Source: Alphaproteobacteria bacterium
GTDB lineage: Bacteria > Pseudomonadota > Alphaproteobacteria > ATCC43930 > Allostellaceae
Assembly (NCBI GenBank): GCA_020852355.1
Contig: JADZBA010000012.1
Span: 1 to 55,982, forward strand
DNA: 55,982 bases
Direction of reading: 5' to 3'
Below, in pieces: positions 46,993 to 51,988 of this stretch (position 1 is its first letter; each line of letters starts with the position of its first letter). The translations under genes were made by a program, and so were the position numbers. The notes under the pieces were generated by a model, which saw only the letters and a program-made list of their open reading frames with translations, was not told where the DNA came from and made no database searches.

Positions 46993-47020
46993 TTGAATAA
47001 GGTTGCGTCCTCTCTATGCT
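46993..47020 (+). promoter_or_regulatory. Sigma-70-like promoter of the second (sugar-type) ABC operon
   Basis: TTGAAT and TATGCT are separated by 16 bases, a good -35/-10 pair for a housekeeping sigma factor, in a locally AT-richer gap. It lies 59 bases before the binding-protein start codon. It marks 47079-51235 as a separate transcription unit from the hyuAB operon. Confidence 0.48.
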
Positions 47021-47078
47021 TCGGGGTGCTGGAAGACCGGCTCTCGCGAAGATGCCGGTCGCGGCAGGGGAGGACAGC

Positions 47079-48350
47079 ATGCGGGTCGGTGGCCGTTCGG
47101 CGCTCGTCGCGATCTCTCTGGGTGTTCTCGCCTGGGCCGCAGCGGCGGCGCAGGCGAAGGAACTGACGTTCTGGAGCCATTGGGCGGCCGAACTGCCCAA
47201 GCGCGAGTTCGTCGAAGCCGTCATCAAGGAGTTCGAGGCGAAGAACCCGGGGACGACGATCAAGGCGACCTGGTACGAGAAGACCGCGCTCTATGCGGGC
47301 CTCAAGACCGCGCTTCGCGCCGGGCAGGCACCCGACATCTTCTACGCCGAGCCCGACCAGGCCGAGTACATGGACAACGGCTTCCTGCTCGACCTGTCGG
47401 GGCTCGACTGGTCGAAGGTGGAGCCCTGGGCCAAGGAGGCCTGGACCCATAAGGGCAAGCCCTACGGCCTGCCGCTCGAAGCCTGGACGATGGAGCTCTA
47501 CTACAACACGAAGATGATGGAGGGGCTCGGCGTCCAGGTTCCGGACAACCGCCAGATGTCGCCCGACGCCTTCATGGACATGGTGAAGAAGGCCAAGGCC
47601 AAGGGCATCACGCCGATGGCTCTCGGCGTCGGCGACCGGCCCTATCCCGGCGCGCACCTGACGCACGAGGCGCTGGTGAAGCGGCTCGGTACCGACGACT
47701 ACGACAAGCTGCTGCGCGGCAAGCTGCCGTGGACGGACCCGCGGGTCGTCGACACGCTGAAATGGATCCGCAGCCTGACCGAGGCGGGCCTGTTGCCCAA
47801 CACCTTCAGCACGCTGAAGCTTGCCGAGGCGCACGTCTATTTCCACACCAACCCCGGCGCGCTCACCTTCCTCAACGGCAGCTGGTACACCTCGCGCGCC
47901 TTCAATCCGGTCGACAAGGGCGGCCAGCCCAAGGACTTCCCGCTCGGCATCATGCAGTTTCCCGCGGTCCCGGGCGCGGTGTGCAACGAATGCCGCACCA
48001 TCGCCATCGGCGGCAGCTACGTCGCCAACGCCGAGACCAAGAACCGCAAGGAGGTGCTGGCCTTCCTCGGCACGTTCCTGTCGCAGGAGGTCGGCAACCG
48101 CTGGCTGGAGAAGGTGCAGGTGCAGACCGGCATCAAGACCGACGCGTCGAAGGTCAAGGACACCCAGGCTGCCGCGTATTTCAGCATGATCGAGAAGACC
48201 AACGCCGGCGCGAAGTACTACTTCGGCATCCCGATCCAGGTCATGACCGGCAAGCCGAAGGAGGTCTACATCCAGGTCTTCAACAACGCCTTCCCGGCAG
48301 GGATCATCAGCGTCGAGGACGCGGTGAAGCAGCAGGCCGCCGCGTACTGA
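47079..48350 (+). CDS. Carbohydrate-type ABC transporter solute-binding protein (SBP family 1)
   Basis: The 423-residue protein has a signal peptide (SALVAISLGVLAWAAAAAQAKE) and the MalE/UgpB-type opening LTFWSHWAAELPKREFVEAVIKEFEAKNPG. GQAPDIFYAEPDQAEYMDNGFLLDL follows, then PYGLPLEAWTMELYYNTKMM. Family 1 proteins bind sugars, polyols or glycerol-phosphates in the periplasm. AGGGGAGG shortly before the ATG at 47079 supports this start over the upstream ATG at 47016. It heads a four-gene operon with two permeases and one ATPase. Confidence 0.9.
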   Translation: MRVGGRSALVAISLGVLAWAAAAAQAKELTFWSHWAAELPKREFVEAVIKEFEAKNPGTTIKATWYEKTALYAGLKTALRAGQAPDIFYAEPDQAEYMDNGFLLDLSGLDWSKVEPWAKEAWTHKGKPYGLPLEAWTMELYYNTKMMEGLGVQVPDNRQMSPDAFMDMVKKAKAKGITPMALGVGDRPYPGAHLTHEALVKRLGTDDYDKLLRGKLPWTDPRVVDTLKWIRSLTEAGLLPNTFSTLKLAEAHVYFHTNPGALTFLNGSWYTSRAFNPVDKGGQPKDFPLGIMQFPAVPGAVCNECRTIAIGGSYVANAETKNRKEVLAFLGTFLSQEVGNRWLEKVQVQTGIKTDASKVKDTQAAAYFSMIEKTNAGAKYYFGIPIQVMTGKPKEVYIQVFNNAFPAGIISVEDAVKQQAAAY

Positions 48351-48375
48351 GGGCGCGGCCCGGGCGGGGTGCGCG

Positions 48376-49287
48376 ATGGGCGAGGCGCCGGCCCATCGCG
48401 ACGACGGGTTGCGCAAGCCCTGGGGCACCATCGTCGCGTTCCTGCTGCCGGCGGTGACCATCTATGTCGCGCTGACGGCCTACCCCGCGGTCCGGACCCT
48501 GTGGAACAGCTTCCACAAGGTCCTGCCGCGTCGCGACGAGTATGTCGGCCTCGCCAACTACGTCGAACTGGCGGGCGACGAGATCTTCTGGAAGGCAGTC
48601 CGCAATACCATCGTCTGGGCCTGCACCTCGCCGCTGGTCGAGGTCTCCGTGGCGATGCTCCTGGCGCTCGCGCTCTACGCCAAGGTGCCGGGCGCGCGCT
48701 TTTTCCGGGTCGCGTGGTTCACCCCGGTGCTGATGTCCTATGTCGTCGTCGGCATCCTCTGGCTGTGGATCTACAACTACGACTGGGGGCCGGTGAACGC
48801 CGCGCTGCGGGCGCTGGGGCTGGGCGCGCTCGCCCATCCCTGGCTGGGCGACCCGGCGACGGCGCTGCCGTCACTGATCTTCGTGACGAGCTGGATGTGG
48901 ACCGGCTTCAACATGGTCGTGCTGCTGGCCGCCCTGCACTCGCTGCCGCGCGAAGTGATCGAGGCCGCCGAGCTGGACAACTGCGGCTGGGGCGGCAAGC
49001 TCGTCTTCGTCATCCTGCCGCTCACCCGGGCGACGGTGCTGAACCTCATCGTGCTTTCCTTCATCGGCAAGATGAAGATCTTCGACCTCGTGTGGATCAC
49101 CACCAAGGGCAACCCGCTGTGGGCGACCGAGACGGTCTCGACCTACGTCTACAAGCGCGCCTTCGAGTGGACGACCTTCGATCTCGGCTACCCCTCGACG
49201 ATCGCTACGGTGTGGTTCGTCATCGTGCTGACGACGGTGCTCGCCATGACCTGGGCGTTCCGCCGGCGCGAGAAGCTGGAGTTCTGA
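48376..49287 (+). CDS. Carbohydrate-type ABC transporter permease (MalF/UgpA-like)
   Basis: The 303-residue inner-membrane protein has about six helices, an N-terminal GTIVAFLLPAVTIYVALTAYPAVRTLWNSF, and the EAA loop EVIEAAELDNCGWGGKLVFVILPLTR. This fits the first (MalF/UgpA-type) permease of a carbohydrate transporter. It is 25 bases after the binding-protein gene and 3 bases before the second permease. Confidence 0.92.
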   Translation: MGEAPAHRDDGLRKPWGTIVAFLLPAVTIYVALTAYPAVRTLWNSFHKVLPRRDEYVGLANYVELAGDEIFWKAVRNTIVWACTSPLVEVSVAMLLALALYAKVPGARFFRVAWFTPVLMSYVVVGILWLWIYNYDWGPVNAALRALGLGALAHPWLGDPATALPSLIFVTSWMWTGFNMVVLLAALHSLPREVIEAAELDNCGWGGKLVFVILPLTRATVLNLIVLSFIGKMKIFDLVWITTKGNPLWATETVSTYVYKRAFEWTTFDLGYPSTIATVWFVIVLTTVLAMTWAFRRREKLEF

Positions 49288-49290
49288 GCG

Positions 49291-50115
49291 GTGACTGCGT
49301 CGGTATTGAAGCGCACCCTGCTGCTGCTCGGCCTCAGCCTCTATACGGCGTTCGCATCCGGTCCGTTCGTCTGGGCGGCGATGATGTCGCTGAGGACGAC
49401 GACCGAGATCCACCGCTCCCACTTCGCCCTGCCGTTCCCGGCGCACTGGCACAAGTTTCCGGAGGCGTGGTTCAACTCCAACTACGCCACCTACTTCGGC
49501 AACTCGGTGCAGGTGGTGGTGACGGCCGTCGTCATCCTGACGGTGGTCGGCGCGATGGCCGCGCACTGCCTGGCGCGCTACCGGTTCCGCCTCAACCGGG
49601 TGATCTACTTCGTGCTCTTCTCGACGATCATCTTCCCGCCGCAGATCACCATCATCTCGCTGTTCCAGATCCTGGTGCAGTACGGGCTCTACAACAGCAA
49701 GGTCGGCCTGACGCTGGTCTATGTGGCGATCCAGCTACCGCTGACGATCTACATCCTGGAGAGCTTCTTCGCGCGCATCCCGTCCGACCTGTTCGACGCT
49801 GCGCGCATGGACGGCTACTCCGACTGGGAGATCTTCTGGCGGGTGGCGCTGCCGATCGCGCTGCCGGCGGTCGCCACCACGATCATCCTCAACTTCATCC
49901 TGCTGTGGAATGAGTTCCTCTACGCCGTCGTGCTGATCACCGACGAGGACAACCGCACGCTGCCGCTCGGCATCCAGCGCTTCATCGGCGACACCCAGGA
50001 GGACGTGGGCATGATCGCGACCGGGCTGATGATCGCCATCATCCCGGTGGTCGTCGTCTATGCCTTCTTCTCGGAGAAGCTCATCCAGGGGATGACCGCG
50101 GGCGCGGTCAAGTGA
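49291..50115 (+). CDS. Carbohydrate-type ABC transporter permease (MalG/UgpE-like)
   Basis: The 274-residue protein starts at GTG 49291. It has the typical MalG/UgpE features SGPFVWAAMMSLRTTTEI, NSVQVVVTAVVILTVVGAMAAHCLARYRF and the EAA loop DLFDAARMDGYSDWEIFWRVALPIALPA. It forms the permease heterodimer with the preceding gene. GTG is the first start after the stop of that gene. Confidence 0.92.
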   Translation: MTASVLKRTLLLLGLSLYTAFASGPFVWAAMMSLRTTTEIHRSHFALPFPAHWHKFPEAWFNSNYATYFGNSVQVVVTAVVILTVVGAMAAHCLARYRFRLNRVIYFVLFSTIIFPPQITIISLFQILVQYGLYNSKVGLTLVYVAIQLPLTIYILESFFARIPSDLFDAARMDGYSDWEIFWRVALPIALPAVATTIILNFILLWNEFLYAVVLITDEDNRTLPLGIQRFIGDTQEDVGMIATGLMIAIIPVVVVYAFFSEKLIQGMTAGAVK

Positions 50116-50128
50116 GACGGTTGCACGC

Positions 50129-51235
<1,107 letters not shown>

Positions 51236-51455
51236 GGGCGGCGGCCCAAGGAAATCTCAAGGCGGGCACGAACATTTCTCGTTTGTCGGTTCCCAGCCCC
51301 CGGGCGATGGTCCACCTGCCCGCGGCTCCGGCGGCGGGATCCGGGCCGGGAGGCCCCGCGGCAATTTGACGGAAGCAGCTTGCGCCGCGTCACCAAACGC
51401 TAAAGCGCCACGAGCACGCTTCGTGGCTCCGGCACGAGATGCGAGGAGACCGACG

Positions 51456-51494
51456 ATGACCGGCACCCGGCGAATGTGTAGCCGCGCCGCCTGA
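51456..51494 (+). CDS. Leader peptide (12 codons) of a probable attenuator
   Basis: ATG-started, 12-codon frame MTGTRRMCSRAA. A perfect GAGGAG lies 7 bases before the ATG, a strength that most full-size genes here lack. The peptide is rich in arginine (three) with one cysteine. Its stop codon falls in the loop of the first of two hairpins (51486-51502 and 51507-51518), so ribosome position could decide which hairpin forms. It precedes two small genes at 51594 and 51800. The amino acid sensed, if any, would be Arg or Cys by composition; this is inference. Confidence 0.58.
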   Translation: MTGTRRMCSRAA

Positions 51495-51518
51495 GCGGCG
51501 GCCCTCGGGCGAGCGCCC
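51486..51518 (+). terminator. Two adjacent hairpins overlapping the leader peptide stop
   Basis: GCCGCC and GGCGGC (51486-51491, 51497-51502) form a 6-bp stem whose loop TGAGC contains the leader peptide stop. GGGCG and CGCCC (51507-51511, 51514-51518) form a second stem right after it. No T-run follows, so a Rho-independent terminator is not proven; they could instead be an attenuator, pausing or translation-coupling structure. Confidence 0.45.
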
Positions 51519-51593
51519 TCGAGCGCCCGCTTCCCCACACGGCAACTCATCGGCATCGCCGCGCCGCCCCAGGGCGGGCGCCAGGGAGCAGTC

Positions 51594-51803
51594 ATGGCTG
51601 ACGCATTCGCCATCGTCGTCGACGACGTCACCGCCGGCATCGTCGTCCGGCACGAGCGGGAGAAGGGCTTCCGCTTCTACGCCTCGGAGCGCCGCTTCTA
51701 CCCGATCGACGGCAAGATCTTCCGCAACCCGCGCGCCGCAATCCGCTCTGCCGGCCGATTGCTGGTCCGCGACGCCGAAGGCGCGTGGGGGAGGGCGGCA
51801 TGA
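51594..51803 (+). CDS. Small protein of unknown function
   Basis: The 69-residue protein begins MADAFAIVVDDVTAGIVVRH, followed by KGFRFYASERRFYPIDGKIFRNPRAAIRSAGRLL. A GGGAG precedes its ATG. The predicted shape is a short beta-hairpin followed by a helix (the Pro-Arg-Ala-Ala-rich part), cytoplasmic, no membrane segment. I recognise similar small proteins in other alphaproteobacteria only as hypothetical. It overlaps the next small gene by four bases (ATGA), a sign of real coupled genes, and sits behind the leader peptide and hairpins. Confidence 0.72.
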   Translation: MADAFAIVVDDVTAGIVVRHEREKGFRFYASERRFYPIDGKIFRNPRAAIRSAGRLLVRDAEGAWGRAA

Positions 51804-51988
51804 GCCGGAACCTGCCGTTCACCCTGCTGGCGGATGTCGATTCCGGCGCGCTGCTCCACGGCGAGCCGGCGCGGCACGAGATCGAGCTGGTCGAGCTGCC
51901 GCGCCGTTTCTGCCGGGGCGCCCCGGTCGGGGTCGCCGCGCGCCGTCAAATCGGATCCTTGGCGATGGTCAGGCCGCCGCAGACATAG
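51800..51988 (+). CDS. Small protein of unknown function, coupled to the previous gene
   Basis: A 62-residue frame beginning MSRNLPFTLLADVDSGALLHG starts in the ATGA overlap with the preceding gene. Its last 43 bases lie over the 3' end of the SDR gene on the opposite strand, so the C-terminal part (about the last 14 residues) may be a shadow and the annotation is less safe there. No motif is recognised. Confidence 0.5.
   Translation: MSRNLPFTLLADVDSGALLHGEPARHEIELVELPRRFCRGAPVGVAARRQIGSLAMVRPPQT

Follow-up and report, generated by a model that had tools for sequence, protein, structure and literature searches.

The SAM-II riboswitch (SAM_alpha, RF00521) is known at the metA and metZ genes of S. 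meliloti (PMC1273637, PMC9373788), and a regulon survey listed SAM_alpha in none of 9 Rhodospirillales (PMC4239095). Short upstream open reading frames (uORFs) with Cys codons have also been described: uORFC-8-2 precedes cysS in Rhodobacterales (PMC8632094), and in Actinobacteria, cys operons with polycysteine leaders are reported (PMC1262725; Canestrari 2020 as cited in PMC13236596). Finally, a B12 riboswitch is combined with a translated uORF at metE and ppe2 of M. tuberculosis (PMC11260477).

In the window, the whole 55,982-nt stretch of alphaproteobacterial DNA analyzed here, a SAM-II-type RNA, a short Cys-containing ORF and a gene for a 69-residue protein stand in a row (Table 1). With SAM-II, the RNA has in common P1, the H-type pseudoknot P2 and the AUUUGA and GCUAAA core, and elsewhere it likewise precedes sulfur amino acid genes; however, the sites described here mostly score below the Rfam cut-off (20-41 bits) and carry additional P0 and P3 hairpins, and the start under control would be that of a leader peptide. 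Like uORFC-8-2, the leader is an alphaproteobacterial short ORF with Cys codons for which ribosome-mediated attenuation is proposed, but uORFC-8-2 has an intrinsic terminator, no upstream riboswitch and a different downstream gene. The actinobacterial leaders are similar in having consecutive Cys codons close to their stop and in Cys-responsive attenuation, whereas they occur in another phylum and in biosynthetic operons, and no SAM riboswitch is reported there. At M. tuberculosis metE and ppe2, too, a riboswitch and a translated uORF govern the downstream gene, but there the aptamer is a B12 aptamer, and no amino-acid sensing by the uORF is described. Each of the components is thus known, whereas their combination and the protein family look new; a search of open-licence literature found no report of either the riboswitch/Cys-leader combination or the small-protein family, although an earlier report in a subscription journal is possible.

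We consider it likely, with a probability of roughly 0.7, that the SAM-II-type RNA and the Cys leader constitute a two-input sulfur switch controlling a small sulfur-poor protein. If true, this would be a natural case of a metabolite riboswitch acting in series with an aminoacyl-tRNA-sensing leader, it would add a SAM-II subclass to alphaproteobacterial groups for which none had been listed, and it would point to an unannotated small-protein family, likely acting in sulfur limitation.

Table 1. Features of the locus in the window
Feature	Position	Strand	Basis or remark
Riboswitch element including P0 and P3	51343-51426		upstream of the leader ORF
P0 hairpin, GGGCC-GGGA-GGCCC, abutting the 5' side of the aptamer	51343..51356	+	hairpin next to P1 in most of 83 sites
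SAM-II-type aptamer	51357..51408	+	Rfam SAM_alpha, own model R1 and structure kept; P1, 51357-51361/51385-51389; pseudoknot P2, 51375-51383/51399-51408
P3 hairpin, CCACGA..TTCGTGG	51408..51426	+	kept in 29/29 sequences
Leader Shine-Dalgarno, GAGGAG	51443..51448	+	sequence; pairing with CTCC at 51427-51430 possible
Leader ORF, MTGTRRMCSRAA	51456..51494	+	position and Cys content kept in relatives; ATG at 51456, 12 codons, Cys codon TGT at 51477-51479, TGA stop at 51492-51494 in the loop of hairpin GCCGCC (51486-51491)/GGCGGC (51497-51502)
Candidate attenuator segment 1, GCCGCGCCGCC (leader codons 9-12)	51481..51491	+	exact repeat of 51558-51568; proposed role
Candidate attenuator segment 2, GCGGCGGC	51495..51502	+	complementary to segments 1 and 3; proposed role
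Candidate attenuator segments 3 and 4, GCCGCGCCGCC + GGGCGGGC	51558..51579	+	proposed role; hairpin directly 5' of the small gene's Shine-Dalgarno
Small-gene Shine-Dalgarno, GGGAG	51584..51588	+	sequence
Small gene, 69 aa	51594..51803	+	conserved family; without Cys or internal Met
Second ORF, 62 aa	51800..51988	+	ATGA-coupled (51800-51803), coding-like; outside the conserved module

The preliminary description of this locus began at the leader frame and missed the SAM-II-type riboswitch directly upstream; the feature starts about 110 nt before the start given there. All homologues examined first had this upstream element in common. With cmscan, SAM_alpha matched positions 51348-51423 at 21.2 bits (E 0.013), whereas at the Rfam gathering threshold of 36 bits no match was obtained in the window. 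The same model gave 20-27 bits at four relatives and 26-41 bits at other sites found with R1, a model that we built from sequences of this element; two of these sites exceeded 36 bits. R1 itself scored the window, one of its training sequences, at 86 bits. Despite the score below the cut-off, the structure defining RF00521, that is, P1, the pseudoknot P2 and the AUUUGA, UUGC and GCUAAA motifs, is present in the window. P1 and P2, the latter formed by UUGC/GC[U]AA and GCaGC/GCGC, are kept in nearly all of 29 sequences, among which two pairs in P2a show compensatory changes (C-G to U-A and G-C to A-U); these sequences were selected by GCTAAAG, which fixes those columns, but not P1, the 5' strand of P2a or P3. 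Furthermore, P0 covaries, with a mean stem score of 4.6 versus 2.15 after shuffling at 83 sites of differing sequence.

The window score of just 21 bits, together with seven homologues in which a Cys leader is present and a SAM-II core is not recognizable, would fit a different reading, namely that the Cys leader alone matters, as a Cys-responsive attenuator, and that this genome retains the SAM-II-like RNA in degenerate or vestigial form. We regard this as unlikely: the window has an intact P1, P2 and P3 as well as an intact core (AUUUGA, CUUGC and GCUAAAG), and R1-type RNA precedes sulfur genes that lack a leader.

R1 sites were found in 93 of 386 alphaproteobacterial genomes. Away from the small gene, they precede genes for MetN, MetX, MetZ, MetY, MetE, CysG and a sulfate-binding protein (sbp), and also for a nitrite/sulfite reductase-like protein, a 1-Cys peroxiredoxin and a porin. 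The context typical of RF00521, upstream of methionine/SAM metabolism genes, is that of these other sites, the window gene encoding a small protein of an apparently new family. In the genome that contains the window, a PLP enzyme of Cys/Met metabolism is in addition preceded by a canonical SAM-II (70 bits). Where a long gene follows an R1 site, its start lies 51-75 nt after GCTAAA, and the first 25 residues of such genes contain 0.7% Cys; at the small-gene sites, it is the short ORF that starts 42-71 nt after the GCTAAAG core. The start codon of the window leader, 57 nt 3' of GCTAAAG, is inside the ranges for both leaders (47-71 nt) and main genes (51-75 nt) elsewhere. Sites at MetN and porin genes also occur with Cys leaders (RRMCRCRCRT, MTTCCP, MTCCCP).

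Several further arrangements were observed. Five R1-type sites lie within 25 kb of a single contig (contig 116 of one genome, about 73-96 kb), several of them with different Cys leaders (MTHNRCS, MVRYLCCRYT), and tandem pairs of SAM-II-like sites 110-160 nt apart were seen at seven loci. In Niveispirillum and relatives, the six-codon leaders MTTCCP and MTCCCP are located 3' of the riboswitch at six loci, one of which has the porin downstream. We also considered whether the RNA is a SAM riboswitch variant of the spermidine type; the variant described in the literature is of the SAM-I class (PMC10853860), whereas the SAM-II core is intact here, and this candidate was rejected.

Most relatives of the 69-residue protein show the same order of SAM-II-type RNA, short frame and small gene, and this arrangement accompanies the small protein in dozens of related soil bacteria; in one family, the RNA sits 157-348 nt before the small gene in 71 of 72 RNA-bearing genomes. 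Leaders were chosen by position and Shine-Dalgarno only, blind to their content. Cys was nevertheless present in 28/28 of them (11.8% Cys, versus 3.3% +/- 0.8% in shuffles), in 29/29 within one family, and in 57/57 at small-gene loci of named genomes (58 loci, one without a pick); these samples overlap and consist of homologous sequences, and are thus not independent. Among 15 leaders of one genus, the Cys26-Cys27 pair is invariant, and the frame and a few other codons are held while much of the rest drifts. Single-Cys leaders (MRGC, MRAC), too, are conserved, in a group of five loci (f50).

The preliminary description had correctly counted three Arg and one Cys in the window peptide and proposed supply of either amino acid, or Arg-targeting peptides, as the signal. 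Its Cys option is supported by the leaders of the relatives, whereas Arg, though common (103 of 652 residues), is neither clustered nor a conserved feature; Arg was therefore rejected as the signal, Cys being the conserved leader residue. The short ORF, its Shine-Dalgarno and the conservation of codons specifying a single amino acid together match what is expected of a leader-peptide attenuator, translation being predicted. Judged by sequence, the short frame is real and part of a conserved switch. The opposite view, that it is a chance ORF in GC-rich DNA, could draw on its shortness, its single Cys and the unexceptional folding of the region, but is highly improbable given that the same position, Shine-Dalgarno and Cys recur in all leader-bearing relatives. 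Equally improbable is that, in the manner proposed for CruR, the nascent-peptide Cys residues bind copper or another metal. The leaders do contain CC, CxC and CxxC patterns, and there is a known uORF with CXXC that senses Cu (PMC9426467), but the number and spacing of Cys vary between leaders, the context is sulfur metabolism, and in several leaders the only Cys is encoded by the final codon and would therefore still be in the ribosome.

The layout of the locus had been read as ribosome-mediated attenuation, and the features behind that reading, a 12-codon frame with GAGGAG whose stop lies in a hairpin loop, are present as described. The check that the preliminary description itself proposed, whether the short frame is kept beside homologues of the 69-residue protein, came out in favor of the attenuation layout. 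The hairpins are likewise present, but the region folds no more strongly than dinucleotide shuffles (z = +1.03 and +0.34). Searches of the region found no recognizable promoter and no terminator-like site, whereas a transcription-type attenuator would have an intrinsic terminator. With such folding, no terminator and GC-rich DNA, the hairpins alone would be unremarkable; at the sequence level, it is conservation in relatives that decisively places the feature beyond chance.

Across 34 loci, the small-gene Shine-Dalgarno was unpaired at 0.220 in the full leader RNA, compared with 0.324 +/- 0.026 after shuffling of the leaders (none of 60 sets reached so low a value); imitating a ribosome stall at the first Cys codon gave 0.374. 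This hiding is a family average, with 6 of the 34 loci going the opposite way, and for the window 53 of 60 shuffles hid the site equally well or better; the window result is thus not significant and is no evidence by itself. The family average also agrees with mutually exclusive structures. The window, although not significant alone, has the repeat of segments 1 and 3: an exact 11-nt sequence present at 51481 and 51558, locally above chance (matched by 19 of 2000 shuffles), the two copies of which would compete for segment 2.

The leader might instead act through coupling, its translation blocking Rho or allowing reinitiation at the small gene and the Cys codons setting the speed, so that control would be by transcription termination rather than by hiding of the ribosome site. 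Such a scheme would accommodate the lack of a predicted intrinsic terminator and the wide variation of the spacers (33-119 nt), and there are precedents for Rho or reinitiation with uORFs (PMC1262725, PMC11260477). We think it possible but rather unlikely, as the ribosome site is hidden by the leader more than in shuffles across the family, although the two mechanisms are compatible.

The two-input switch can be formulated more strictly as a serial AND gate, to which we give about even odds: a SAM riboswitch, of a SAM-II subclass that has flanking P0 and P3 and mostly escapes the current model, would act on a Cys leader, and the leader on a nearly sulfur-free protein of a new family, made only if SAM and charged tRNA-Cys are both low. 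The geometry, which corresponds to that at main genes elsewhere, suggests that the riboswitch acts on the leader start and the leader on the small gene. The SAM-bound riboswitch, with its flanking P0 and P3, would repress a translation start about 55 nt downstream, a slot that holds the 12-codon leader, with its Cys codon near the end, instead of a main gene. At low SAM the leader would be translated. With ample charged tRNA-Cys, the ribosome would finish, the leader RNA would re-pair and a hairpin would hide the ribosome site of the small gene; with scarce Cys, the ribosome would stall, segment 2 would pair with segment 3 and the small gene would be translated. From these serial steps it would follow that low SAM together with low Cys turns the small gene on. 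Given two putative sulfur sensors in a row and the recurrence of the arrangement beside the same protein, the latter is probably made only under sulfur shortage. Counting against the two-input switch are the window element below the Rfam cut-off, the single Cys codon of the window leader, the unremarkable folding, the unrecognized promoter, the seven Cys leaders without a SAM-II core and the absence of the 69-residue protein from all three congeners of the window genome that were searched.

A protein-based scan of genome contigs likewise gave no close relatives of the window protein, but by profile searches members were detected in 38 of the 386 alphaproteobacterial genomes and, within one family, in 79 of 82. 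The window protein is 33-48% identical to distant homologues from its order, and named holders include Azospirillum, with the module present in the non-pathogenic laboratory species Azospirillum brasilense, Niveispirillum, Bosea, Chelatococcus, Microvirga, Inquilinus and Labrys. Annotated members are labelled hypothetical protein, and Pfam, NCBIfam, PHROG and PADLOC contain no family common to them. The 2591 residues of leader-linked members include 1 Cys and 8 Met, whereas neighbouring ORFs contain 1.07% and 1.84%, respectively; members without a leader have 24 such residues in 1309, compared with 9 in 2591 (Fisher p 6e-6), although these p-values are optimistic because the members are related. 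Near absence of Cys and Met is what would be expected of a protein made under sulfur starvation.

AlphaFold2 predicts a beta-beta-beta-alpha-alpha fold with confidence (mean pLDDT 88). No solved structure in the PDB matched the model (best E 0.48, YkuJ), and thus no function can be read from the fold; regulation, neighbours and composition suggest that the protein acts in sulfur limitation. Of 34 loci, 18 have the following gene on the opposite strand; elsewhere it is often MetN, an SsuA-like or a sulfate-binding protein, once a thioredoxin-like protein, with a LysR regulator in a trio. The relatives are monocistronic or lead sulfur-uptake genes. The two small ORFs of the window are indeed ATGA-coupled, as first described, and the second is coding-like (GC3 = 0.94 in the part before its overlap with a convergent SDR gene); however, only the first gene of this supposed two-protein mini-operon is conserved. 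No conserved counterpart of the second was found beside relatives of the 69-residue protein, and it was therefore excluded from the module.

Immediately upstream of the locus, at 47016-51235, the window contains a complete and apparently unrelated sugar-type ABC transporter operon (solute-binding protein, two permeases, ATPase). Lastly, the alphaproteobacterial module, in a version close to that of Inquilinus, is present in one record titled Mycobacterium sp. KBS0706, probably a mislabelled genome.
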